Source: a virus. From it: a DNA stretch of 33,173 bases. The notes under the pieces were generated by a model. It saw only the letters and a list, made by a program, of their open reading frames with translations. It had not been told where the DNA came from and did not search any database. Shown here one piece after another: positions 1 to 33,173 of this stretch; positions within the stretch are counted from its first letter, which is position 1, and the number at the start of each line of letters is the position of its first letter. Location of the stretch: positions 1 to 33,173 of the IMG/VR virus record IMGVR_UViG_3300025168_007920; one strand, written 5' to 3'. A program made the position numbers and the translations under genes.

Positions 1-1268
1 TTTTGATATACATTACTTATCATAACACCATAATTTACACTTTGATTTTGTAATGTATCTTTCCAGTTGACAAACTTATTTTGTAGCATTCTTAATACAT
101 TAATAGCTTCTTTAAACTCTTCGTAATAAGATTCATTATGACCTTGTAAACATAAATCAAACAGTTTAGTTCCTCTATCATGATACCTTTTGTCTGTTTC
201 AGGCTGATTAACATAAAAATATTGATTAGTACATATTGCATTTGATATATCTCTATCAAAATAATCATAATCTTCATGCCATTCACCTGTTACATCACCA
301 CATTCAGCATAGCAAGTAGTGTATAATTTTCTTACATAATGTAACACAAGTATGAATGCTTCATTTAAACTAGGGCAATCAGTTACTTTAGTTTGTAACC
401 ACAAAGCTAAGTTATATGCACCTATATGTTTTACAGATTTAAAATGGAGAAGTTCTATATCTTCATTATAATATCTACTTCCACATTCTATGTGTCTTAT
501 AGTTCTAGATAAAGGTTCTGATTCGTATTCTCTTTTTCTAGCAGGTGTCAATTTAATGTTGTAACTAGCAAAATCACTACCACCATATTTATTTGTTAAC
601 GACCATATATTTTGCTCTATTGGATACATATTATCAGACTTTATAAAAGCTTCTTTTAGCATGTGTTCATTAAATAATGGAAGTCTATTTATCTTTTCAA
701 AGTCTTCAGGTTGATGATGAGGACTTCTATAGTTCCAAGAAGTTAAAAATCTTCTTATATGCCATATGAATCCTGTAAAATTATAGTTTGTTACAGATGC
801 TGTAATAGCTGTTTCCATACCAGCAAAGCACGCGTTACCATGACTAATATGTGGATGTTGTGCGTATACAAAGTCTTCTACAAGCTTACCATCTAATACA
901 CCCTGTTGTTTTGTATAAAACTTAAATACCCATTTATCAAAACCTGTGTTTATAACTCTAAGATAGTAATCACCAAGCCTAAATATCTTTCTACGCTTTA
1001 GTTTTACATCTTTAAACTTAAACCAGAACTCTATAGAGTCTACAGGTATTTTAATGCTGTTAGATTCATGCTCTTCTGTATGTTGTACAGCTTTTACAAG
1101 CTCACAAGTATCATCACCTAAGAGTGTATCAACAAACTTTGGTATGTCTTCTGGTGGTCTTGTAAATGAATCTTGGTTATAATCATCAAATTTATTTATT
1201 ACATCGTCTATTACAGCATTATCTCTTGTAAATAACCATGTAAATAATTCTATTAATTGTGTTCTCAC
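1..1268 (-). CDS. E2-like (ubiquitin-conjugating-fold) candidate, 3' part outside window
   Basis: The frame is open for 422 codons to the left edge, so the C-terminus is missing. It starts at a GTG at 1268 with AGAGGT about 7 bases upstream. After an N-terminal stretch of about 90 residues comes a beta-rich segment (about 93-120, FRLGDYYLRV then WVFKFYTK) followed by H138-P139-H140, then C147 in GNACFAG, then helices (about 150-178). This order of strands, an HPN-like motif, a Cys seven residues after the motif's last residue, and helices is the signature of E2/UBC-fold enzymes, in which the Cys carries ubiquitin as a thioester. A further 240 or more residues are unlike any domain I recognise and hold several Cys (262, 298, 319, 323, 346, 373). 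The preceding gene on the same strand encodes a beta-grasp, ubiquitin-like protein, which supports the reading. Catalytic activity is inferred; an inactive RWD-like fold or a chance motif is possible. Confidence 0.5.
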   Translation of the reverse strand, partial: MRTQLIELFTWLFTRDNAVIDDVINKFDDYNQDSFTRPPEDIPKFVDTLLGDDTCELVKAVQHTEEHESNSIKIPVDSIEFWFKFKDVKLKRRKIFRLGDYYLRVINTGFDKWVFKFYTKQQGVLDGKLVEDFVYAQHPHISHGNACFAGMETAITASVTNYNFTGFIWHIRRFLTSWNYRSPHHQPEDFEKINRLPLFNEHMLKEAFIKSDNMYPIEQNIWSLTNKYGGSDFASYNIKLTPARKREYESEPLSRTIRHIECGSRYYNEDIELLHFKSVKHIGAYNLALWLQTKVTDCPSLNEAFILVLHYVRKLYTTCYAECGDVTGEWHEDYDYFDRDISNAICTNQYFYVNQPETDKRYHDRGTKLFDLCLQGHNESYYEEFKEAINVLRMLQNKFVNWKDTLQNQSVNYGVMISNVYQ

Positions 1269-1296
1269 TTATCTTACCTCTACTTTCTCTTTATTT

Positions 1297-1386
1297 AAAA
1301 GAGAGCCTCACATATTCCTTTGCTTGGGTCTTCAGCATATTACATTAATAACCAAGACTTACAGGACCAGTTATTGGCTCTCTTTT
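1297..1386 (-). other. Long-range stem-loop in the spacer before the E2-like gene
   Basis: AAAAGAGAGCC at 1297-1307 is a perfect 11-bp inverted match to GGCTCTCTTTT at 1376-1386, enclosing about 68 bases. The enclosed bases contain competing smaller stems (AATAAC/GTTATT, GTCTT/AAGAC, CTTGG/CCAAG). In the direction of transcription the stem ends about 29 bases before the GTG at 1268. It has the seven-base closing stem of a tRNA but no T-loop, so it is not a tRNA. It may be an RNase III processing site, a structured leader or an inefficient terminator. Confidence 0.55.
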
Positions 1387-1405
1387 AATTGTTTATTACC
1401 TCTGT

Positions 1406-1648
1406 TTAGCCACTTTTATTAGCAGCGTTTGCTATGTTAATAGAATCTCCAACAGCTATTGGAGTATTTAACTCTATAGGTTTATCATTATTATTAGAGT
1501 CTTTAAACTGTATAACAACATTATTTATTGAGATGTTTTCTGCACTCAATACGTCTGCTAATGTTGCGTAGTCTGATACTAATAATGGCATAGGTCTACC
1601 TTTAGTAAAACTATCCATATAAAACCTATCGTTATTTTCTTCTGACAT
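1406..1648 (-). CDS. Small beta-grasp, ubiquitin/ThiS-like protein
   Basis: An 80-residue protein with ATG at 1648 and AAGGA upstream. The order of elements fits a beta-grasp fold of the ThiS/MoaD/ubiquitin type: an N-terminal strand pair (about 13-26), a helix TLADVLSAENI (29-39), a strand VVIQFKD (44-50), then ELNTPIAVGDSINIA (59-73) and a short tail ending in a single Gly (NAANKSG). In ThiS, MoaD and ubiquitin the last strand is followed by a C-terminal Gly-Gly that is adenylated by an E1 enzyme; the GD-x-I step before the last strand is typical of ThiS/MoaD. Only one terminal Gly is present here, which is odd but seen in some bacterial ubiquitin-like proteins. The next gene downstream encodes an E2-like protein, suggesting modifier and conjugating enzyme. 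Alternatives are a sulfur-carrier protein or an unrelated small virion protein. Confidence 0.5.
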   Translation of the reverse strand: MSEENNDRFYMDSFTKGRPMPLLVSDYATLADVLSAENISINNVVIQFKDSNNNDKPIELNTPIAVGDSINIANAANKSG

Positions 1649-2119: not shown

Positions 2120-2980
2120 CTAGAATATATACCTAATTTCTTGCCAAGGTAACATATTGTTATGTAATTTAATAAAATACTCTTTTAATCCTGCTTTATA
2201 CTTATACGAGTATCTTATATTCCTACCACCAAACTGTGATAGTTTACTTTCTTGTTTACCTGGTGTCCATAAATACTCTTCGCCTTTTACATTGTTATCG
2301 ATGTTGTATTTATGCATTTTTACGTTATGAGTAAGAAATATACACTCACATTTAACGTATTCTTTAATATTATCGTCTACAATATCATCAACTAGCTTAA
2401 ACAACTTTTTATAGTCTTCCGTTGTTTCTTGATATGCTATTATAGGCGAGTAATTAATGTGTACATCATAACCTGCTTCATAAAAATCGTTTATTGCATG
2501 TATTCTATCTACAATACTTGATGTTCCAGGTTCTAATACACTTGATAGTTTTTGTGGCATAAGACTAAAGCGTATACGAACTTTACGCTCTGGGTTATAC
2601 TTTAACAAAGACTTGTTAACATATTTAGTCGCTGCTGTGCCCATTACTCTATCATTATCTTTAAAGTAATCAAACAACAACTCCCAATTATGGTATTTAG
2701 CATGTTTTACATAGTCTTCATTACAACTAAAATCATAAGTGTAATACTTACTGTGCGTTTGATTAGGCTGTTTAGGCCATTGTAAAGCCATAAGATGTTC
2801 ATCTATAGCATTTATTAACGCTTCTGTATTCGTAGCTATAGTTATACCTGATTTAATATGTCTACGCATATAACAATAACTACATCTATATAAACAACCA
2901 AAACCAAATGATGGTGTTATATAATCACTACTACGACCTGATGGACGTATTTTCATAGCCTTACGTTCTACGTATTTCAT
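2120..2980 (-). CDS. Radical SAM protein, spore photoproduct lyase-like
   Basis: A 286-residue protein with ATG at 2980 and AAGGAG upstream. The sequence GFGCLYRCSYCYMRR gives the radical SAM cluster motif C29-x3-C33-x2-C36, which binds a 4Fe-4S cluster and cleaves S-adenosylmethionine to a 5'-deoxyadenosyl radical. The surrounding residues (PSFGFGC before, CYMRRH after) and the later segments RIRFSLMPQ and YDVHINYSPII resemble the spore photoproduct lyase (SplB) and Rv2578c-like branch, whose founding member repairs UV thymine dimers. The cluster motif lies much nearer the N-terminus than in Bacillus SplB, so the N-terminal part is short. Likely roles are DNA photolesion repair or another radical reaction on nucleic acid; peptide modification is less likely. 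It is in the same leftward block as the beta-grasp and E2-like genes, but a functional link is unproven. Family membership is firm; the substrate is not. Confidence 0.8.
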   Translation of the reverse strand: MKYVERKAMKIRPSGRSSDYITPSFGFGCLYRCSYCYMRRHIKSGITIATNTEALINAIDEHLMALQWPKQPNQTHSKYYTYDFSCNEDYVKHAKYHNWELLFDYFKDNDRVMGTAATKYVNKSLLKYNPERKVRIRFSLMPQKLSSVLEPGTSSIVDRIHAINDFYEAGYDVHINYSPIIAYQETTEDYKKLFKLVDDIVDDNIKEYVKCECIFLTHNVKMHKYNIDNNVKGEEYLWTPGKQESKLSQFGGRNIRYSYKYKAGLKEYFIKLHNNMLPWQEIRYIF

Positions 2981-20847: not shown

Positions 20848-23800
20848 ATGGCTATACAAGTAAAAGAGGTACATAAGTTTGATAAAGGTATACACGGTTC
20901 AGTATCTGAACTTGATATATCTCCTGAATCTGCTTCATTATCCTTAAATATAGACCCTAATTCTGAATATGGTGCTTTAAGAGGTATACAAGGTGATAAA
21001 ATATTGTCTGAAGATGGATGGGAAACACCAAGATATGCAAAATGGGGTATAACATTTTTTGGAGATGTAAATGGATTAATACCTAAAACAACTTTAGAAA
21101 AGAAATTATTCTTAATAAATGCTTATGATAAATCATTTTTACTTGTATTTACGTTTGATAACTCTAAAGTACAACTTAGATTTGGTGGTACTGGTACTGA
21201 TATTGTTGCTGATTTTGAAGTTGGCAATAACATAGGTATACATTCAGATTTATTTGACCATACAGCTGATGATGAATATACAATAGCAAATAGCGATAGC
21301 AGAAATTTTAATGTTATTCCTGTTTTACTTGAAGACAAACTAACAGATGCAAACAAAATAAAAGCTGGGCATATTGCTGATGCGGTAAAAATAGCTTTAA
21401 ATTATGCATACCCGTCTTCAACACTTCAAGCAGTTAGTGGTTATAGTTCTTATTTTTATTGTTATAGACCTTCTACATATGCTACTCAAGAAGAGTTAGA
21501 TGTTGATGGGACATTAAGTATACTAAGTAATTTTTATGGTGACATATCTATTCCTAGATTACCTATTGAATCATTTGATAATGGTGCTAATATTCCAGGA
21601 ACATCATTAGGACATACTTCTGGTTTATATTTACCTGATTCAGAATTGTACTCTACTAATTCTACATATTTTATTAAAGGAAGTGGTTTAGCTCAAATTC
21701 AAACTCTAGATGGAATAAATTCTGAAGAAACAACTGACTTTAACTTTTTAAAATTAAAGGCTTTTAATTCAAAAGATTCTTCTAATATTTTAGCTATTAC
21801 TAAAACTGCTCAAGTAAAACTTTTCCAAAACTTAGAAAAAAGTGGCTCTATTAGTAATTCTGATTTAGGTAGTATTTCAATTTCTTCAGAAAACTCATTA
21901 TCAATAGAACAAAGAAATAAAAATTTATACTTAGGTGCTGGTGATTATAGAGGAACTTCTTCTATGTGGATAGGGTTTATTGAAAGAAGTCAGATAGGAA
22001 AACAACTTAGCGGTTATTATTTAGAAGAAAATAATTTAAAGTCTATTTCTGATTCTATTGGAGCAAATAATTTTGACAATGTTGTGGTTCCAACATTGCA
22101 TCATGGATTAAATAATACAAATGGTGGTATAGCTGGAGCGGCAAGTTTATATGCCGATAATGCAGAAAGCGGCTCTAATGATGATTTATATAAGGATGAT
22201 ATAGTAAGTGGTGGTCACTTTAGAAGTGTTAATGGATGGATTAAACAATGCTTAAAGAATAATGACCCAACAGCAACAGGTAATTATGACCATTACAATG
22301 ATGTAAAAGAAGGAATGATATTTAGAGTTAATTTAGGTTATAATTATGTAGCATGTGATTACACAGGTAATCATGAACCTGCTAATGGAAAATCTGCTCA
22401 AGAATATTTATTTGCATTAAAAGAAATTGCAAAAGGAAAAATAAAACTTAGTTCTGAAAATAAGACAGATGAACCAAATATTGAACCATTTAGAGGAGGT
22501 TCAGGAGAAACATTGCATGATGGTGATTTATTTCAAGTAGTATATTCAAGTGGAGAAGATGAAGATATTAATTTGTCTGCTATTGACGATAGTAATATGT
22601 TTAGATTAGTTTATATAGGAACTTTACATGGTAAAGCAAAAACAGGAACTGCCCACCCTTCTTATGCTAACTCTACAGATGCTTATTGTGGTATACCTGC
22701 TTACGCGTACGCACACACAAATGATAACTTTAACTTAATAAGAATTAAAACTACTTCTAAATCAGATGCGAGTATAGCAGAATTACATGCTGATAAAGGT
22801 GGAATTTATACTGAAATAAAAGACACACATGGTTTAGGTATAAAATTTTCACCTAAAAGATTAGAAACTATTGATTTAAGGGTAGAATTAGGAGTTACTG
22901 ATTTTGAAATAAGTACAATGTCAGAGTGTAAAAGTTCTGATGGAGCTGGTGGTTTTGGTGGGGATATAGGTACTATTACAGAAAATAGTGTTCTTAGGAA
23001 TAAAAACTATTTTACAGGACATGGTAAGCTTTGGGTAGCAAACAAAAATGAACCTCTTAATTTATACCTAATTGATGTTACTAATTGGGATAATCAAAAT
23101 GTAAATAAACCAAGAATTAGTTTTAAAAAAATAAGTTTAGTATTTGACAGGATTCATAAAACTTTACTTTCTGATAATAACACTAATTACGGAAAAGGTT
23201 TAGTTAGACTTACTGAAACAGTTGATAGTGGAGAAGCAGATTTAGATAAAGAAAAAAGTTATTTTACAGGATATGAATGGAACCCTTTACCTGAAGGTCA
23301 ATATATTTCTTCTATCTGTGAAACATATTCACACTTACCTCATATGGGTGATGGAGCAGGTGGAGGAGCTGCTAATGGAGATGGTAAATGGAGAGTTTGG
23401 GTAGAGTACAAAAAAAACGAAGAATTAGCTCATATACGGTATGATTTATTCTTATTTAATTTTAGACCTCAACCTTGGGTTGGGTCTGGTAATGACAAAG
23501 GTGAAGGTATTACATCATCTAGCACTCAAGTTTATATGTTTGATAAAACTCCACCAAATCAAGAATGCCAAAAAGTTAAAATGCCTAGTCTTAAGACCAA
23601 TCAAGGTAATAAAACCATTTACTATCCTTTTGATAAAATGGTTATAACAAAAAAAGGTGCGCAAGGAACTAATGATTTAAGAATATCTGGACAAACATCT
23701 GATATGAATATAGATTACGGAAGTGATTATATAGGTCAGGCAAAAGGAAACACAGATACTTCTGAAAAATATTGTCATAACGACCATATACCTAATGATA

Positions 23801-26800
23801 GTGCATATTCTTTAAAATTTAGAAATCCTTCAGGAGAATTTAGAGGTTTGTATGCTCCTGATTTACAATATCAAAGTTGGACAGCTGGAGAGAGATATGC
23901 TCATAAAACAGCGACTCTTCCTTTAGGGCATAATATTGGTTGGCTTTTAGGTTCTCCTAGAGAATACACTCCAGTAAGACATACTTTGAACCCTTACTAT
24001 AGAAAATGGTATTTTACAGGCAATACTAGTAGTGGAACAGGTGTAAATCAAATACCTTATCCAGATGAAGAAAACTACAAAGCTTCTGGCAAAAAAACAT
24101 TAAATGCTCATGTTGTGTCTTCTTTTGGAAAATTAACTGGTAAATTTGTAAGACACGCAGGAACTTTGGTAGGAGGAAAAAGAGTATCAACAAATCTTCC
24201 ATTTAATGGTGAAAAGTGTTGGTGTGCTTATGAAGAAGGGGTATTAAAACATTTTGGTGATGAATATACTGTATTTAATATGCACGACAGTCCTGTTGCT
24301 ATAGAGTCGTATAATGGAACAGCTTATGAAGTGCAAGGTAAACCTGCTACTTCTGTTGGTAGCGAAACTGTAGAATTAGCTGATAATCCTGATGTAAATA
24401 GATATTATTACTCTGATACTGAAGCAGGGTTTATGGGAAGTAGGAGCGCAGATGATAATACTACTGCAGATGCGATAAATCATAGTAGCGTCCCTGCTAC
24501 AATGGGCTACAGTAAGTATAACCAATACAGATTTCATCACGCTAACAATGGAACTGCTGATTTAACAAATGATGATGGCAATGGTGAAAGTGAAAGTTAT
24601 ATTACTGGAAAAACATACGGTTATGGAGGGCAATATTTTGGAAAAGACAGTTTTGGTCACTATACAAATATAACACAAACATGGGCGTCTAATCAAGATT
24701 ATTTACTACAAGGAAGTAAACCAGAAGATGTAACTGTAAAATCAACCCATGATTTTCCTCAGCATGCCGAGTTTGAACATGTGAGAGGATTTGGATGGGG
24801 TGATGGAGCTCAGTTTAAAGAAAATAACGTAAGAAGTTCTAATGGTTTGTACTGGAGTGGTACTCCTTACCCAGCACAATCAGGCTCAAGCCCTACAGAA
24901 AGATTTTCTAAGCATGGAACTGGATATTTTACATATCAAGCAAATACTAATTCACTTATTACTACTGATACTAGCAAGTCAGGATTTTATAGTAGCGATA
25001 CAAATGTTGATAATGGTAGCACATTTATAGTGCCTGGTAAACAGTGGGACAACAGAAGAGTAGTTCACTGTTGGTCAGTAACGGCTTTAACAGATTCAAT
25101 TCATAATTATAGCTACAATACAGCAAGAGATGCAAATAATTTATTTGACCACAGAGAGTTTGGTCTTTGGAAAACTCCTAGATGTTCATTTAGAAAACTA
25201 GAAATTCCAGGATTTTTTGGAAATAATGCTAAAATAATGAATATAGATACTATAAGCTGGTCAGAAAGAAATGTAAATGAACCTAATCCAAATACAGATA
25301 GTACTAATGACAACACTTTTATGAAGTCTGGTTATTTAGTTCAATTTGCTTGTGAAGATGGAGATGTAAATGATACTGACACTTCTTCAACAGGGGTTGT
25401 TGTTTATGAAACAAAAACATCATCTTTTTATGCAACAAATTCAAGTAACCCTATTTTTGGAGATACCAATCCTTATGCAGCTCATTCTTTAGCAGCTACT
25501 GATGTTTTAAGAGCAGTACATAAAATAAGTGATTTATCTAAAATAGAAACTAGTATATTTAGGCAATTTATGCATTATAAAAATAACAAACTTATTACTA
25601 AAAATTTAGTACCTGGTTTAGCCGATACTTTAACATCAACTCAAACAAGTATTGAAAGAAGTAATGAAAACTTAAAACCTTTTAAAATATTACACGAAAG
25701 ATACTCTCCTTTAGTTTTATCTCATGGAGGTAGTGAAAGTAAAGAAGAAATTGGAATTTGGGTAAGAGCTCAATTTAATTCTCCAAATGAATCTTCTCAA
25801 GATGTTATAGACTTAGGTGGGTTTCCTTATTACAAATGTGACAAACTTTGGAATTATTGGTCTAAAATTAATAGCAAAGGTTTTGATAGAAGCACTAGTA
25901 ATTTCGACTCTGCTAATTATATAACAGAAGGTTGGGGAAGTACTTCTGGTTCAGGAACAGATGACCAATATCCTTTTAGTTATAGTAATATAAATTCTGA
26001 AAATCAACTAAAAACAAAAGATGGCGCACACATTAAAAATTCTAATGCTTCAATTTTAGAAAAAGAAGCCCAAATAGAAACAGATGGTGCTGCAGAGTTT
26101 CCAGAAGGTGGGGTTTTATATAAGTTTAGTTTATTATATGACGGGTTTCAAGAAAGCCCTTTAAATAAAAATGCTCTAGAAATAAATGTAACTGCTAATT
26201 CTTCTATGTTAAGATTAAAATTAACTGTTCCAAGTTTAGATTTTATGGGTATAAATGCTAGAGTTACTCATATAAATATTTATAGAAAAAATAAAACTGA
26301 AGATTTATACAGGCTAGTAAAATCTGTTAGTTTAGATTTATCAAAAGAAAATTGGGCAAATGATGGTAGTGAGTTTATTTTACGTTTTAATGATGAGCAA
26401 AGACTTTCTTCTTACGAAGGTTTAAATGGTATACCAGAGTCGCTAACTAACTTAACACCTAACTACAGACTGTCTTGTCAATTAAATGATTTTTTATTTG
26501 TAAGTGGATTACACCATCCTAATTTAGAAGACGGTGACCACTTACTATTAAGGTCTAAACAGGGTAGATTTTCTGTTTTTGATTGGTCAAATGACTTTTT
26601 AGATATACCTACTAAACCTGTAGCAATGGCTGGATTTGCAAATAGAGTATGGGTATTTGATAATAATAACATGTACAAAATAAACCCTACAGGGTTGTAT
26701 ATTGAGGACAAAACTGAGGGTATTGGTATCTTGAACTCAGAATCATTTATTGTTACCGATATGGGCATGTTTTGGTGCGATAGAAGTAACATATACAAGC

Positions 26801-28011
26801 ATGATGGTACAAAAATAAATCAAATAGGTACATCTATACTTAAAAATCATTCTCATCCTGAATGGCAAATTGGTTATTTAGACGCAGTAAATAAGTCTGA
26901 GATTTTAGGTTATACTCCCAAAATAGGTTATGATTCTATTAACCAATGTGTATACGTAACATTACAAGGTTTTAGTAAATCTCTACTAAGCTATAAGAAG
27001 TATGATAGTAGAATTTATTCTTATGATATAAAACAAGATAGATGGGATTACTATGATTCACCTGCTGTAAAATCTTTAACTACAGATAATAATGGTAGCG
27101 TTATTATGAGTGATGGATTTCAATTATACAATTACAGAAGGGATAAAAAGAATCCTAAAAAATTCTCTTGGGATAGCAAAACGTTTCAATTAGGTAGTTC
27201 AAATTATACTAAGTCATTAAAGACGTTAAAATTTACTGGTGACATATGTTTATGGAACTTTAATAATGGGGCTGAAAATAGAAACTTTATTTCAGATACA
27301 GGAGGTGATATAGTCTATGAAGAACCAGACTTTAAAACAACTAAAGATGGACATGTTTTAGAAACTAGTATTGCTTCAGAAACGGATGATTTAAAAGTTT
27401 ATGTAGATGGTATACTGCAAACTATGAGAATTAAGTCTAGAAACCCTGTTATTGGTTCTCCTATAGCAAACGATTCTACAGGAGAAATATATGCTTTAGA
27501 CCAAGCATTACCTTCTTTTGAGACGAAAAGTGGTACTTTAACTTATAAAGATTCTTTTTCTATAACTAATACATCCTGTCCTGAATTTTTAACTTGGCCT
27601 AATGGTCAATTTGAAAAAGTTACTTTAGAAGGTGAATTGTCTGAATTAATGCATATACATAAAGGTATGTACTTGTATTTTAAAGGTATTGATATTAATG
27701 GTATTACTCAAGAAGAAATAGTAAGAGTTAGAGATATAAAGTTTACTTGGGAACAATTAGAAGGTGGTAAAAACACTTTAAGTGGGCCTGTAGAAATAAG
27801 AACTTGGAGAGGCCAATTAGGAACAAAATCTTATAATTGGAGTAATTCTGAATTAATGCCTCCTCTTAATATAAACCCAATAAAAACAGCAAGCCCTACA
27901 CTTTTATTCCCAAGAGGAATAAAGGGGAAAACAGTTAAATTATCACTACAAAATCAAAAATCATTTATTGATTCTTTTGCTATATCTTATAGAGTAAAAA
28001 AGTTTAAATAA
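20848..28011 (+). CDS. Giant nozzle/stabilisation-like tail protein, 2387 aa
   Basis: At 2387 residues it is by far the largest complete gene. The N-terminus (HKFDKGIHGSVSELDISPES then LSLNIDPNSEYGALRGI) is like the start of tail-nozzle or packaged-DNA-stabilisation proteins of short-tailed marine phages. The last ~640 residues (about 1745-2387) look like a beta-propeller of the P22 gp10 / T7 gp12 kind (NARVTHINIYRKN, LNDFLFVSGLHHPNLEDGD, NRVWVFDNNNMYKINPTGLY, MFWCDRSNIYKHDGTKINQI). The ~1680 residues between are Gly/Asn/Tyr-rich, without motifs I know, and make up most of the protein. The usual size of such proteins is 450-800 residues, so this is a greatly enlarged version. ATG at 20848 has a poor ribosome site, and coupling to the gene just upstream is likely. 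Confidence 0.65.
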   Translation: MAIQVKEVHKFDKGIHGSVSELDISPESASLSLNIDPNSEYGALRGIQGDKILSEDGWETPRYAKWGITFFGDVNGLIPKTTLEKKLFLINAYDKSFLLVFTFDNSKVQLRFGGTGTDIVADFEVGNNIGIHSDLFDHTADDEYTIANSDSRNFNVIPVLLEDKLTDANKIKAGHIADAVKIALNYAYPSSTLQAVSGYSSYFYCYRPSTYATQEELDVDGTLSILSNFYGDISIPRLPIESFDNGANIPGTSLGHTSGLYLPDSELYSTNSTYFIKGSGLAQIQTLDGINSEETTDFNFLKLKAFNSKDSSNILAITKTAQVKLFQNLEKSGSISNSDLGSISISSENSLSIEQRNKNLYLGAGDYRGTSSMWIGFIERSQIGKQLSGYYLEENNLKSISDSIGANNFDNVVVPTLHHGLNNTNGGIAGAASLYADNAESGSNDDLYKDDIVSGGHFRSVNGWIKQCLKNNDPTATGNYDHYNDVKEGMIFRVNLGYNYVACDYTGNHEPANGKSAQEYLFALKEIAKGKIKLSSENKTDEPNIEPFRGGSGETLHDGDLFQVVYSSGEDEDINLSAIDDSNMFRLVYIGTLHGKAKTGTAHPSYANSTDAYCGIPAYAYAHTNDNFNLIRIKTTSKSDASIAELHADKGGIYTEIKDTHGLGIKFSPKRLETIDLRVELGVTDFEISTMSECKSSDGAGGFGGDIGTITENSVLRNKNYFTGHGKLWVANKNEPLNLYLIDVTNWDNQNVNKPRISFKKISLVFDRIHKTLLSDNNTNYGKGLVRLTETVDSGEADLDKEKSYFTGYEWNPLPEGQYISSICETYSHLPHMGDGAGGGAANGDGKWRVWVEYKKNEELAHIRYDLFLFNFRPQPWVGSGNDKGEGITSSSTQVYMFDKTPPNQECQKVKMPSLKTNQGNKTIYYPFDKMVITKKGAQGTNDLRISGQTSDMNIDYGSDYIGQAKGNTDTSEKYCHNDHIPNDSAYSLKFRNPSGEFRGLYAPDLQYQSWTAGERYAHKTATLPLGHNIGWLLGSPREYTPVRHTLNPYYRKWYFTGNTSSGTGVNQIPYPDEENYKASGKKTLNAHVVSSFGKLTGKFVRHAGTLVGGKRVSTNLPFNGEKCWCAYEEGVLKHFGDEYTVFNMHDSPVAIESYNGTAYEVQGKPATSVGSETVELADNPDVNRYYYSDTEAGFMGSRSADDNTTADAINHSSVPATMGYSKYNQYRFHHANNGTADLTNDDGNGESESYITGKTYGYGGQYFGKDSFGHYTNITQTWASNQDYLLQGSKPEDVTVKSTHDFPQHAEFEHVRGFGWGDGAQFKENNVRSSNGLYWSGTPYPAQSGSSPTERFSKHGTGYFTYQANTNSLITTDTSKSGFYSSDTNVDNGSTFIVPGKQWDNRRVVHCWSVTALTDSIHNYSYNTARDANNLFDHREFGLWKTPRCSFRKLEIPGFFGNNAKIMNIDTISWSERNVNEPNPNTDSTNDNTFMKSGYLVQFACEDGDVNDTDTSSTGVVVYETKTSSFYATNSSNPIFGDTNPYAAHSLAATDVLRAVHKISDLSKIETSIFRQFMHYKNNKLITKNLVPGLADTLTSTQTSIERSNENLKPFKILHERYSPLVLSHGGSESKEEIGIWVRAQFNSPNESSQDVIDLGGFPYYKCDKLWNYWSKINSKGFDRSTSNFDSANYITEGWGSTSGSGTDDQYPFSYSNINSENQLKTKDGAHIKNSNASILEKEAQIETDGAAEFPEGGVLYKFSLLYDGFQESPLNKNALEINVTANSSMLRLKLTVPSLDFMGINARVTHINIYRKNKTEDLYRLVKSVSLDLSKENWANDGSEFILRFNDEQRLSSYEGLNGIPESLTNLTPNYRLSCQLNDFLFVSGLHHPNLEDGDHLLLRSKQGRFSVFDWSNDFLDIPTKPVAMAGFANRVWVFDNNNMYKINPTGLYIEDKTEGIGILNSESFIVTDMGMFWCDRSNIYKHDGTKINQIGTSILKNHSHPEWQIGYLDAVNKSEILGYTPKIGYDSINQCVYVTLQGFSKSLLSYKKYDSRIYSYDIKQDRWDYYDSPAVKSLTTDNNGSVIMSDGFQLYNYRRDKKNPKKFSWDSKTFQLGSSNYTKSLKTLKFTGDICLWNFNNGAENRNFISDTGGDIVYEEPDFKTTKDGHVLETSIASETDDLKVYVDGILQTMRIKSRNPVIGSPIANDSTGEIYALDQALPSFETKSGTLTYKDSFSITNTSCPEFLTWPNGQFEKVTLEGELSELMHIHKGMYLYFKGIDINGITQEEIVRVRDIKFTWEQLEGGKNTLSGPVEIRTWRGQLGTKSYNWSNSELMPPLNINPIKTASPTLLFPRGIKGKTVKLSLQNQKSFIDSFAISYRVKKFK

Positions 28012-31000
28012 TGCCTAGAAATATTAGGACATACCAAAAGCTTATAAAGCCTTCAGAAGAACAGCTTGTAGATGCTGTTAATGAAATAATTGAAAGTGTC
28101 AATACTGTAAGTGCTTCTGCTGAAAGAGAGAACTATAAAGGTAAGCCTGGTGATGTAAAAGTAAATAAAGTTGCAAATAACAAATACGACTTTTATGTTA
28201 GAGGTGAAGATGGTTGGCATAGAGATACAAACTCATCTTACGGACCTGTAAACGACTCACAAACACAAACCGATACTCAACCTGTTATACTTAGTAATGG
28301 CACTATCGATAATCAATATCTTGGTTCTTCTAGAATATTGCTTAATCTAGATGCAAGTACTAGCATTACTGGTGTTGCTAACCCTAAAATAGAGATAACA
28401 GGTAACGGAACTTTATCTAGTACTGGTAAAACAACTATAGACTCTGCAGGAGATATAGAATTAAATGCTGATGGTGGTGATTTATTTATAAAAGACGATA
28501 CTTCTGAACTTGCCACTATAAACTCAAGTGGTTTAAAAATAAACAATATATCTGCCGCTGATAGTGATACAGATAAATTCTTAGTAAGTGATAGTGGTTT
28601 AGTTAAATACAGAACAGGTGCACAAATACTAACTGACCTTGGTATAACTGCAGACGAGATACTAGACTGGACTGCTGACCAAGGTAGTAACAATATACAT
28701 GCTAGTAACTTTGCAGATATTACAAGTACAGGTACTTTAGATATATCAGGTGGAACATTAACTACTTCAGCTGCTCAAAAGAAATCAATAGTTGAAGGTG
28801 TAGCGGCTAATACAGATATAGGCGCTTATGAATTTAGAGCACAAACTTTTCAATCTGATGCTACTACCCTTTCTGGAACAGCCCCTTTTACAGTAGCTTC
28901 TACAGTTAAAGTTGCAAATTTAAATGCAGATAAACTAGATGGTGCTGATTTAGTAGATGAAGATAATATGGCATCTAATAGTGCTGTTAAAGTACCTACA
29001 CAACAATCAGTTAAAGCATATGTAGATTCAGAGATTACAGGACTAGTAGACTCTGCACCAGGTGCTTTAGACACACTTAACGAACTTGCTGCTGCACTTA
29101 ATGATGATGCTAGTTTTTCTACTACAGTTACTAATAGTATAGCAACTAAGGTAGGATTAACAGGCAACGAAACAGTTGCAGGTGAGAAAATATTTTCAAG
29201 CACTTTAAGAGTAGGAGATGCAACAGAAGGTATTAGATTATTAAATATTTCATCAAATATAGCAGGAATATATGGAGTTGATACAGGTGGTTCGGCTTGG
29301 AACTCTATTCATATTAAAGCAGATGGTGAAGATGGGTTATTTATAGAAAAAGATACTAATAAGGTAGGTATAGGTACTACTAGCCCTGGTTCAACACTAC
29401 ATATTTCAGATGCAAGTAGTAGTGGAGTAACTTCTCTTAGTCTTAATAACAGAGTAAAAGTAAGAGGGGATGGAGTAGTATATTGGGGTTCTGGTGCTGC
29501 TCATGGTACTTTAAGTTGGGATAGTGGTAAAGCATTAATAAATTCTCAAGGAACAAATGATTTACAAATATCAGCAGGTGGTAATCATACAGACCATATT
29601 TATATTGATGGAGGTGGAAGCACTAATGATGGGTGTGTAGGTATAGGTACTAATAGTCCTGATGAGAAATTACACGTTGTAGGAGATTTAAAAGTAGTAG
29701 GTAATATATCAAGTGTAAGTGGAGGAGCATCTATTGGTGATAGTGCTGCTGATACATTTAGAACTACAGGGCATACATATTTAGCTACTGTAGGTAATAA
29801 TGTAGGTATAGGCAACACAAGTCCTAACCATTTATTACACGTTGGAGATGATGTTACTGCTACATTTGGGACTGCTCCTGATAAAGCAATACAATTATCA
29901 AGTTCTACAAATGACCACGAAATAGCATATATATTGTATGCAGGTGAGGGTACAAATAACATTAGAAGTAAATACTATGTAGATGATGCTACTAAGTATG
30001 TAGGTTGGGATTCTACTCATAGCACAGGGTGGCTTGGTTATGAATGGAAGATTGCAGGTACTCAGAAAATGGTTTTAAATACTTCAGGTAATTTAGGTAT
30101 AGGTACTGCAAGTCCTTCAGTAAAATTGCACGTTGATTCAGGCACATCAGATACAGTAGCAATATTTAAAAGTTCAGACAGTACAGCAAGAATACAAATA
30201 CAAGATGATGATACTACTAATCATATAGTATCAAATAACTCAACTTTATCATTAGGTGCTAATAACACAACACACGCAGGAAATTTAAATATAGACTCTA
30301 ATGGTAGAGTAGGTGTAGGTGTTACTGACCCTGATTCAAAAGTAGAAATTATTGGAGAAGGCGATAGTAGTAGTACAAAATCATTAGAGATTAAAGATAG
30401 TGGTGGAACTAATTTATTTTATGTAAGAGATGATGGTGTAGTAAGTGTAACTCATAATTATCTTTTTGTTCAAGCAGGAGGTATTTATTCTACTTATGCT
30501 ATAAGAGCAAGAGGTGGAATTACTGATGATGGTGGTGCTTTAGGATTAGGAAGTGATGGAAGTACAAACCATTTTATTATTACAAGTGGTAATATAACTA
30601 CAGGTGTATGGAATGGTACTGCAATAGCAAGTGCTTATTTAGATGCAGACACAGCACATCTTACTACTAACCAAACATTTACAGGACAAAAAACATTTAA
30701 CAAAGCATTTCCACAAGTTCAATTCACAGATGATAGCAATACCGATTATGTTGAATTAGGTTTAAGTGGTGACACATATTTTCATAAAACATCAGATGCA
30801 AATATTAATTTTGGTTGGAGAGATAATAATAATAATGAATTAATGACACTTGATACAGGTGGTCAAACACTTACAATAGGAGAAGCACCACAAACTACTT
30901 ATAAATTAAAAATAGGCGATAATGGTAGAATGAATATGCCTCAAAGAGGACTTGAGTTTGAAAATGCTCACGGGTATTTTAGTCCATTAGGCGATATGTT

Positions 31001-33173
31001 TTTACCTTTATATATTAATGTTACTCAAACAGATTTAATAAGATTTCAACCACCATTAACTTGGGAGTATTATAATTATGCTGCAAGTGCTTATGTAGAT
31101 GATATGAGTAATGTTGCTAATTTACAGAATATGCTTGATGGTAGGAGAGGAACAAGTTATTCAGTTTCTAATACAAAAAGAAAATTTAGATTTGTAATAA
31201 CAAGAGCAACTAGTTGGGCAGATGACCATTTATTTTATATAGAAAATACTTGGAGTTCTATTGGTTCTTGGTCATCAAGTGCTGCAGGAGGTGGAAGTTT
31301 AACACCTACTATGGTAGTAGAAAGATTAGATGGTAGTTTTGATGCAGATGATGATACTAATAATGATTGGAGTACCAATGCAGGTATTACTACTGATTGG
31401 CATACAACAGGAATTTGGAATGGTTTTGGAATGGGTATGTATTACTCAACAAGTATGCACAATACAGAAACTCATATAAGAATTACAGTAACTTTTCCTG
31501 AATATGCAGATGCAAGTAAAGAAATTAGTATTAAAAATATAGGAGCAATGTCCTCTTATTCAAGTCAAAATACTAATCAAGATGCTTTTGTTCAGGATTT
31601 TAACAGAAATTTAACAGGTAATGGTAGCATAAGTATACCAACAGGAGATAGTTATAAAATTAATGGAACAGCTGTTATAAGTGCTACTCAATTAGGCACA
31701 ACTGTAGTTGCTTCATCACTTACAAGTGTAGGTACAATAGGTACAGGGGTTTGGCAAGGTACTGCTATTGCTAGTGCTTACCTTGATTCAGATACTGCTC
31801 ATTTATCAGGTAATCAAACATTTACAGGAGTTAAAACTTTTGGAAATTATGTAAATATAGAAACTGCAACTGATGCTATACTAAATTTTAAAGCAACTGA
31901 TGATTCTTGGTGTTATATGCAGTTTTTACAAAATGATGGCGATAGAATAGCATATATAGGAACTGATGGCGACCAAGATAGACTGATTCTTAATGCTACT
32001 GAAAATGGTGCAGATGAGATAGAAATAAATACTACAACAGTAGATATAAATGCTAATGTAAAAATTAGTGGAACTCTTGATATGGAAGATAGCAACATTA
32101 CTGATGTAGGCGATATAGCATTAGATACAATCAGTTCAGATGCAGGTACATCAATAGGTGTAACATTAGGAACAGATGCAGGAGATGATTTTAATGTAGG
32201 TGGTGGTAAATTAGTTGTAGAAGGCGATACAGGTAATGTAGGTATTGGAACTGCAAGTCCTTCTGTTAAGTTAGATGTAGAAGAATCTTCAGTATCGGCT
32301 CTTATAGATATACATCAATCTGCTTCAAGTACAGGCACAGATTCAGGGATTAGATTTCAAAAAAATAGTAACTTAAAAGGTACTGTAGGCTATAATGCAG
32401 GTACTGATACAGTTAACTTAAATTATGGTGCATTTGACAATACTCATCTTAATATAGATAGTAGTGGTAATGTAGGTATAGGTACTACAAGTCCTACTGA
32501 ACCATTAGAAGTATGGAGTGCTAATTCAGAAGCATATCATTATCCTATTGTAGCAAGAAACCCTTATAATAGTGAAACTAATTTAGATTTTGGTGTAGGG
32601 ATTAAGTTGCAACTTGATGATGGAAGTGAAAGCAAATGGGCAGGTATGATTTATGAAGCAGATTCTGCTTATGGTAATTCAGGAGATTTAGCATTTTATA
32701 TAGATGGTGCTACTAATACTTCTCCAAGAATGAAATTACAACACGAAGGCGATTTAAATGTAACTCACACAGGTTGGCGAGGAATAGTTATAAATAATGG
32801 TTCTAATACTAATGGCTCACATTTAGAATTAAAAAATACAGAAAGAAGATTTCAAGTAGCAGTAAGAAGTAATGGATTTGATATTAGAGATGTAACTGCA
32901 AGTGATACATCAAGATTAAGTATAAGTAGTGGTGGAACTTTTAATTTTAACAACAATAATATTATTAATATGGGTGATGTTGAAGTTGATAAAGTATTAG
33001 GAGCTGAAGCTAATAATGTATTTACAACATACACTACAGGAGGTATTGCAAGTGAAGCAGAAAGTGGAGATACAATAGCTTTTAATTCAGTACAAAACAA
33101 TGTTGATTTTCAAGTAGATGGAGAAAATACTGTTAACTTATTTTATGTTGATGCTTCTGCTGATAAAGTAGGT
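28011..33173 (+). CDS. Tail fibre protein, 3' part outside window
   Basis: The frame is open for 1721 codons from ATG at 28011 (TAATG overlap with the previous stop) to the right edge. The N-terminus (MPRNIRTYQKLIKPSEEQLV, then a YKGKPGDVKVNKV and FYVRGEDGWH segment) is the virion-attachment part. The rest is Ser/Thr/Gly/Asp-rich beta repeats: at least seven motifs like GNVGIGTTSP followed by a Leu-His-Val step (near residues 452, 543, 597, 694, 766, 1409, 1487) and repeated 'G-N-x-T-x-x-G-x-K-x-F' units. A WGW-type segment near residues 1000-1200 may be a distinct domain. Such fibres bind host receptors; the receptor-binding tip and any chaperone lie beyond the edge. Confidence 0.85.
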   Translation, partial: MPRNIRTYQKLIKPSEEQLVDAVNEIIESVNTVSASAERENYKGKPGDVKVNKVANNKYDFYVRGEDGWHRDTNSSYGPVNDSQTQTDTQPVILSNGTIDNQYLGSSRILLNLDASTSITGVANPKIEITGNGTLSSTGKTTIDSAGDIELNADGGDLFIKDDTSELATINSSGLKINNISAADSDTDKFLVSDSGLVKYRTGAQILTDLGITADEILDWTADQGSNNIHASNFADITSTGTLDISGGTLTTSAAQKKSIVEGVAANTDIGAYEFRAQTFQSDATTLSGTAPFTVASTVKVANLNADKLDGADLVDEDNMASNSAVKVPTQQSVKAYVDSEITGLVDSAPGALDTLNELAAALNDDASFSTTVTNSIATKVGLTGNETVAGEKIFSSTLRVGDATEGIRLLNISSNIAGIYGVDTGGSAWNSIHIKADGEDGLFIEKDTNKVGIGTTSPGSTLHISDASSSGVTSLSLNNRVKVRGDGVVYWGSGAAHGTLSWDSGKALINSQGTNDLQISAGGNHTDHIYIDGGGSTNDGCVGIGTNSPDEKLHVVGDLKVVGNISSVSGGASIGDSAADTFRTTGHTYLATVGNNVGIGNTSPNHLLHVGDDVTATFGTAPDKAIQLSSSTNDHEIAYILYAGEGTNNIRSKYYVDDATKYVGWDSTHSTGWLGYEWKIAGTQKMVLNTSGNLGIGTASPSVKLHVDSGTSDTVAIFKSSDSTARIQIQDDDTTNHIVSNNSTLSLGANNTTHAGNLNIDSNGRVGVGVTDPDSKVEIIGEGDSSSTKSLEIKDSGGTNLFYVRDDGVVSVTHNYLFVQAGGIYSTYAIRARGGITDDGGALGLGSDGSTNHFIITSGNITTGVWNGTAIASAYLDADTAHLTTNQTFTGQKTFNKAFPQVQFTDDSNTDYVELGLSGDTYFHKTSDANINFGWRDNNNNELMTLDTGGQTLTIGEAPQTTYKLKIGDNGRMNMPQRGLEFENAHGYFSPLGDMFLPLYINVTQTDLIRFQPPLTWEYYNYAASAYVDDMSNVANLQNMLDGRRGTSYSVSNTKRKFRFVITRATSWADDHLFYIENTWSSIGSWSSSAAGGGSLTPTMVVERLDGSFDADDDTNNDWSTNAGITTDWHTTGIWNGFGMGMYYSTSMHNTETHIRITVTFPEYADASKEISIKNIGAMSSYSSQNTNQDAFVQDFNRNLTGNGSISIPTGDSYKINGTAVISATQLGTTVVASSLTSVGTIGTGVWQGTAIASAYLDSDTAHLSGNQTFTGVKTFGNYVNIETATDAILNFKATDDSWCYMQFLQNDGDRIAYIGTDGDQDRLILNATENGADEIEINTTTVDINANVKISGTLDMEDSNITDVGDIALDTISSDAGTSIGVTLGTDAGDDFNVGGGKLVVEGDTGNVGIGTASPSVKLDVEESSVSALIDIHQSASSTGTDSGIRFQKNSNLKGTVGYNAGTDTVNLNYGAFDNTHLNIDSSGNVGIGTTSPTEPLEVWSANSEAYHYPIVARNPYNSETNLDFGVGIKLQLDDGSESKWAGMIYEADSAYGNSGDLAFYIDGATNTSPRMKLQHEGDLNVTHTGWRGIVINNGSNTNGSHLELKNTERRFQVAVRSNGFDIRDVTASDTSRLSISSGGTFNFNNNNIINMGDVEVDKVLGAEANNVFTTYTTGGIASEAESGDTIAFNSVQNNVDFQVDGENTVNLFYVDASADKVG
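30588..30692 (+). repeat. Intragenic fibre repeat, copy 1
   Basis: It encodes GVWNGTAIASAYLDADTAHL then TTNQTFTGQKTF. The second copy, 381 codons later, matches at nearly every residue. An earlier, more distant relative (LTGNETVAGEKIF) is near residue 383. Confidence 0.7.
31731..31835 (+). repeat. Intragenic fibre repeat, copy 2
   Basis: It encodes GVWQGTAIASAYLDSDTAHL then SGNQTFTGVKTF. The close match to copy 1 suggests a module duplication of about 1143 bases in the fibre gene. Confidence 0.7.

Follow-up and report, generated by a model that had tools for sequence, protein, structure and literature searches.

A putative ubiquitin-like conjugation cassette in the replication operons of phages

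Bacterial ubiquitin-like conjugation is so far best known from anti-phage defense or mobile elements. We wondered whether bacterial viruses might encode such a pathway for their own use. The question is raised by two genes at the left end of the window, the whole 33,173-base IMG/VR record analyzed here, which is part of a larger phage genome (related contigs include several of ~52 kb). The original prediction read them as a modifier and an E2: two consecutive minus-strand genes, the first for an 80-aa beta-grasp protein ending in Gly, the second for a protein with an HPH...Cys signature. Both genes are present as it described them, each behind a plausible ribosome site.

The Ubl and the E2-like protein

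The gene of the ubiquitin-like modifier (Ubl, 80 aa; 1406..1648, minus strand) was defined from its ORF and translation, an AlphaFold2 model, and family conservation. It starts with ATG behind an AAGGA ribosome site and ends in Asn-Lys-Ser-Gly. The predicted beta-grasp fold was borne out by the model (pLDDT 88.4): its top match among solved structures is a ubiquitin-like domain (E=7.6e-4), and further matches are mostly beta-grasp proteins, including ubiquitin, SUMO, Caldiarchaeum ubiquitin, TtuB, ThiS, MTH1743, and a bacterial Ubl. On this model we confidently assign a beta-grasp ubiquitin-like fold. The terminal NKSG (1409..1420, minus strand) is the predicted activated and conjugated end, judging from the endings of relatives. 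The final Ser-Gly is invariant in a 32-member family; window-clade relatives end in K/E-S-G followed by 0-3 extra residues, and the SG or GG ends found across subtypes have 0-4 residues beyond them. The C-terminal Gly is thus positioned for activation. A Ubl-like match in Sinorhizobium phage phiM12 (E=6, within a longer unrelated CDS) was rejected as chance.

A 13-bp perfect inverted repeat with a U-rich 3' side lies between the two genes (1295..1388, minus strand). Its stem is conserved and its loop varies among close relatives; the folding z is only -1.85. The hairpin is a possible terminator or processing site that would set the Ubl level above that of the E2.

The E2-like (UBC-type) gene (3..1268, minus strand) is cut by the window edge, so that the window holds the first 422 of its 516 aa. 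It starts with GTG behind the ribosome site AGAGGTAAG; the full length was obtained by joining the window to contig L002, on which the gene end was found. His138-Pro139-His140 (849..857, minus strand) and, seven residues after it, Cys147 (828..830, minus strand), the predicted thioester-forming residue, are invariant in 58/58 distinct sequences; the original prediction had raised variability of Cys147 among homologues as a possible objection, and none was seen. The spacer is 6-7 residues long among relatives. When 43 E2 relatives were aligned, H138, P139, H140, and C147 were the sole invariant columns at a mean column identity of 20%, which places the HPH...C pattern beyond chance. The protein therefore carries the HPx motif and catalytic Cys of E2/UBC enzymes.

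The evidence on the fold is of a different kind. The E2 model (pLDDT 87.5) has the order meander strands, HPH, Cys, and two helices. Against the PDB it gave no match at E<=0.001; the highest probability among the 50 matches listed, only 0.23, belongs to ubiquitin-charged Ube2N (Ube2N~Ub), and the E1-E2 fusion Cap2 is also among them (probability 0.05). An alignment with UBE2N, although short of significance by its score, pairs HPH with HPN and Cys147 with the catalytic Cys. Hence the signature half of the E2/UBC claim stands firmly, whereas the fold half has only these weak matches to Ube2N and Cap2; on the model, a UBC fold is likely. Neither protein had a significant match in Pfam, PHROG, NCBIfam, or PADLOC, hmmsearch of either profile against PDB sequences returned coiled-coil or chance matches only, and a direct tblastn search with the E2 found no match among 50,697 phage records.

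The JAB and E1 genes and the conservation of the cassette

There is no E1 or JAB gene inside the window. The original prediction had them either left of the window or supplied by the host. We found L002 by scanning viral contigs with the E2: it is 99% identical to the window and extends past base 1. After the E2, L002 encodes in order a 287-aa JAB/JAMM protein, a 248-aa ThiF/E1 protein, a Sak4-like AAA_24 ATPase, a 205-aa protein, and a DnaB-type primase-helicase. The missing genes thus lie to the left, and host supply is unnecessary because the phage encodes both. The same succession of E2, JAB, and E1 is seen in L003, a 38%-identical relative.

The E1 matches Pfam ThiF above the cut-off (E=2.9e-17), which places it in the E1/ThiF superfamily, and by score it is closest to ThiF/MoeB models. 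Its invariant residues are G23 and G25 (GxG), D47, D49, K70, D108, R113, D131, R133, and C166; the GxG and the other eight are kept across four phage groups, and a C-x-K motif is found in 178/178 distinct E1s. In the JAB, the metal-site residues E27, H94, H96, S106, and D109 are invariant in 65/65 window-clade sequences, as in JAB/JAMM proteins, and the window phage's own JAB scores just below the Prok-JAB cut-off (E=8e-5; 22.9 against 25). The HxH..S..D pattern is missing from 21 JAB ORFs, all of them pieces truncated by contig ends or halves of split genes. In E2, JAB, and E1 alike, the residues that never vary are the ones catalysis would require.

How constant is this arrangement? An E1-based scan of viral contigs with a short-motif search gave at least 80 loci (E-values of the locus scans are relative to the candidate stretches). 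Among these, Ubl>E2>JAB>E1, all on the same strand, was the order in 45/45 window-clade loci reaching far enough upstream; where no Ubl or E2 was detected, the sequence mostly stops too near upstream. The conserved neighborhood by which the original prediction could be judged is therefore there: the Ubl-E2 pair always occurs together, followed by JAB and E1. The many near-duplicate contigs hold 37 distinct Ubl, 70 E2, 68 JAB, and 69 E1 sequences. Cassette genes are coupled: they overlap or nearly abut.

Comparison of the window phage with L008 gave a dN/dS of 0.16 for the Ubl, 0.18 for JAB, 0.15 for E1, and 0.24 for E2 codons 1-190, versus 0.54 for the rest of the E2. By these sequence comparisons all four cassette genes are under purifying selection and functional. 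At primase-helicase identities of 80-99.5%, the median identity was 85% for E1, 79% for the Ubl, 70% for JAB, and 46% for the E2, with only 33% for the E2 C-terminal part. Because this part is the fastest-evolving piece of the cassette, it may be a target recognizer: the pattern suggests that a large, fast-changing E2 C-terminal region chooses targets.

In sampled loci the cassette is followed by genes for the Sak4-like AAA_24 protein, the primase-helicase, and an HNH endonuclease, and in crAss-like phages it is flanked by DNA primase, UDG, resolvase, and exonuclease genes. Judged by its neighbors, the cassette sits inside replication/recombination operons. On its other side in the window it adjoins a gene (2120-2980, minus strand) for a radical SAM protein resembling spore photoproduct lyase (Pfam SPL, E=5e-22), which also stands beside the cassette in some relatives (L008, L010, and L061). 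Far from the cassette, two giant ORFs follow the structural genes (20848-28011, 2387 aa; 28011-33173, >1721 aa); the 2387-aa ORF matched no named family, and both are possibly large virion proteins.

A motif-limited scan of bacterial genomes with the window-clade E1 returned no relative, and one with the crAss-type E1 returned three short MAG contigs, which are probably binned phage pieces. These scans suggest that the cassette is absent from bacterial chromosomes.

Related cassettes in crAss-like phages and in a diverged subtype

The E1 and JAB also match Flavobacterium psychrophilum phages and Crassvirales, in which Ubl, E2-like, JAB, and ThiF genes lie near those for DNA primase and uracil-DNA glycosylase. 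A scan with the crAss-type E1 gave at least 80 viral contigs, and all four genes were present in the same order in 71/71 with enough upstream sequence. The complete loci include a record matching the cultured crAss001, and crAss001 itself is matched by E1. In hhalign comparisons, the window-clade and crAss-type proteins match over most of their length for E1 (E=1.7e-54) and JAB (2.9e-43), so that at the profile level the two cassettes are clearly homologous, if distant. The E2 profiles match weakly (E=0.023) with the Cys aligned, and homology between the Ubls of the two types was not detectable by hhalign. The window phage is not itself crAss-like; that reading was rejected, its terminase and portal being ~22-26% identical to assorted non-crAss phages.

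The crAss-type E2 motif is HSH...C. The crAss-type Ubls usually extend 100-200 aa beyond KSG, which suggests that the JAB matures them. In crAss-like phage cr106 (L091:3384-4587), an HNH endonuclease gene parts a Ubl ending in KKIKSGKF from its former C-terminal extension; the split falls exactly after KKIKSG plus two residues. L224 encodes an 83-aa Ubl almost without extension. The KSG junction thus behaves as a natural boundary.

In eight crAss-type loci (L166, L183, L194, L203, L184, L190, L224, and L232), the JAB gene is interrupted within or beside the JAMM motif, and in the first four of these Rfam group I introns lie at the split. Conserved sites are the typical location of group I introns. 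Homing-endonuclease-like ORFs were seen in some of the split loci.

Databases either label the E1 'thiamine biosynthesis protein (ThiF)', as in records of crAss-like phages (for example MH675552 and MT774391), or give the genes no name; in PHROG, all cassette genes are 'unknown'. The gene context suggests that the thiamine label is a misannotation.

A scan with the primase-helicase gave 511 relatives, of which 80 loci were examined. In broader members of the lineage, too, JAB and E1 genes occupy this position. The idea that some of them keep JAB and E1 without E2 and Ubl was rejected, as a diverged subtype B is present upstream: its Ubls end in TGG, VGG, or RGG, and its E2s mostly have HP[F/Y]...C. 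On the C-terminal side of the catalytic Cys, the subtype B E2s (L122-L159) share four more cysteines that never vary (C-xn-C-x2-4-C-x5-C) and may bind zinc or an Fe-S cluster.

At least one relative (L141, 44 kb) has no E1. A DUF932 gene occupies the cassette position in same-lineage phages without it (L141:3626-4423 and L114:63-860). The cassette is not strictly essential, since a few related phages lack it and have DUF932 instead; the swap may be informative.

A proposed pathway, its rivals, and its place among known systems

Taken together, these results make it probable that the genes amount to an entire, reversible pathway of ubiquitin-like conjugation encoded by the phage. The sequences themselves show which genes there are and in what order, that their catalytic-type residues never vary, that they are under purifying selection and lie in replication operons, and, by modeling, the beta-grasp fold; the enzyme activities, the transfer order, target choice by the E2 C-terminus, and the purpose are what we infer. 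The ThiF-family E1 would adenylate the C-terminal Gly of the Ubl and load the Ubl onto its own Cys166; the Ubl would be handed to Cys147 of the E2 and from there to amino groups of target proteins. No E3 was found, and the E2 C-terminal part would pick targets in place of a separate one. The JAB/JAMM protease would trim Ubl precursors that carry extra residues and would also remove the tag. Proteins would be tagged during the replication phase.

As to the targets, we lean slightly toward proteins at the phage or host replication/recombination machinery, then host proteins (defense proteins included) met during replication, with anything else trailing behind. The first is favored by the placement of the cassette in replication operons of phage groups with unrelated virion genes, the second by the fast E2 C-terminal part and the occasional loss of the cassette. 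On balance, we slightly favor a picture in which large phage lineages, cultured crAss-like gut phages among them, use a self-encoded cascade in replication, with a conserved Ubl/E1/JAB core and an exchangeable E2 recognition region that adapts to the host.

The strongest rival, which we regard as unlikely yet worth serious attention, is counter-defense: the pathway would mainly tag and disable host anti-phage proteins, or compete with CBASS Cap2/Cap3 or Bil. The low identity and raised dN/dS of the E2 C-terminal part are what a host-facing module should show, and the cassette is sometimes missing or replaced. However, two broad phage groups carry it almost without exception, inside their replication operons, and it is more constant than typical counter-defense genes; in PADLOC it matches nothing beyond E1 domains of a generic kind and, marginally, a JAB.

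We give little credence to a sulfur carrier of the ThiS/MoaD/TtuB kind, in which the E1 would thiocarboxylate the Ubl for tRNA or cofactor thiolation and the thiamine label would be near the truth. The E1's nearest models and the TtuB, ThiS, and MTH1743 matches of the Ubl would fit. Yet the cassette never lacks an E2-like protein with the conserved Cys and His motif, the invariant C-x-K motif of the E1 suits thioester transfer, and the annotated flanks contain no recognizable rhodanese, ThiG, MoaE, or TtuA-like gene; with an E2 present, we reject a role as sulfur carrier only. A role of Ubl and JAB in virion maturation, serving tail or capsid assembly like lambda I and K, is a shade less credible still: Ubl and JAB pairs are known from lambdoid tail clusters (PMC1779556), but the cassette lies in the early/replication block rather than the tail block and always includes the E1 and E2 that the lambda pair lacks. 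Least credible is a coincidental resemblance, the HPH...C protein being structural or nuclease-like; the want of a significant PDB fold or Pfam match would fit, but HPH and C are the sole invariants among 43 diverse sequences and the gene is fixed between the Ubl and the JAB-E1 pair in three subtypes.

If these genes do specify a complete, widely conserved conjugation pathway, protein tagging would extend to the viruses of bacteria, where it would probably accompany DNA replication. This can already be put to the test, because Bacteroides phages of the crAss-like kind, which form a major part of the human gut virome, have been cultured and carry the cassette. Research on how ubiquitin signaling arose would also gain natural and compact sets of E1, E2, Ubl, and DUB.

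The lambda I (Ubl) and K (JAB) genes resemble the cassette as a phage-encoded Ubl with C-terminal Gly plus a JAB (PMC1779556). That pair lies in a tail cluster without E1 or E2, whereas the present genes include both and lie in a replication block, so they are not a TAPI/TAPK-type pair.

CBASS type II (Cap2 plus the JAB Cap3) and Bil share E1-domain kinship and reaction logic with the phage cassette; in PADLOC, the phage E1 matches E1-E2 (1e-8) and BilD (4e-6). In CBASS, Cap2 is an E1-E2 fusion serving the bacterium, whereas the phage has separate E1 and E2 and a dedicated Ubl. No nucleotidyltransferase or effector was recognized in the cassette, and the flanking genes that were scanned or annotated include no CD-NTase; this and the separate E1 and E2 set it apart from CBASS type II; from Bil it has the BilD-type E1 domain only, with no BilA/B/C match in PADLOC.

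Members resembling JAB and ThiF also occur in the PRTRC plasmid system (NCBIfam TIGR03735-03738). Crass-type proteins of DAC15 gave weak scores with PRTRC_ThiF (4e-8; 32.8 versus a cut-off of 144.75) and PRTRC_A (0.009; 15.5 versus 101.8); no NCBIfam A/B/C/ThiF model is matched above cut-off, and the window-clade Ubl and E2 match no PRTRC model.

Crassvirales (Steigviridae) and Flavobacterium phage FpV have the same four genes in the same order (DAC15_88-91, ALN97163-ALN97166), deposited as hypothetical, ThiF, or metalloprotease proteins rather than as a conjugation system. We found no description of a phage E1-E2-Ubl-JAB cassette in the open-access literature, crAss001 and crAss-like genome papers included; preprints and subscription journals were outside this scope.

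Bacterial Ubl/E1/E2/JAB operons were described, along with the lambda tail Ubl/JAB pair, by Iyer et al. 2006 (PMC1779556), which in the part consulted lists no phage E1-E2 cassette. The closest likeness there is to the type 6d operons, which also have separate Ubl, JAB, E1-like, and E2-like genes and a predicted conjugation and deconjugation role. Type 6d operons have an extra alpha-helical protein and an E2 without the classical His before the Cys, whereas the phage E2 keeps HPH; and they are listed there from bacterial genomes, whereas the present cassette is carried by phages, within their replication operons.
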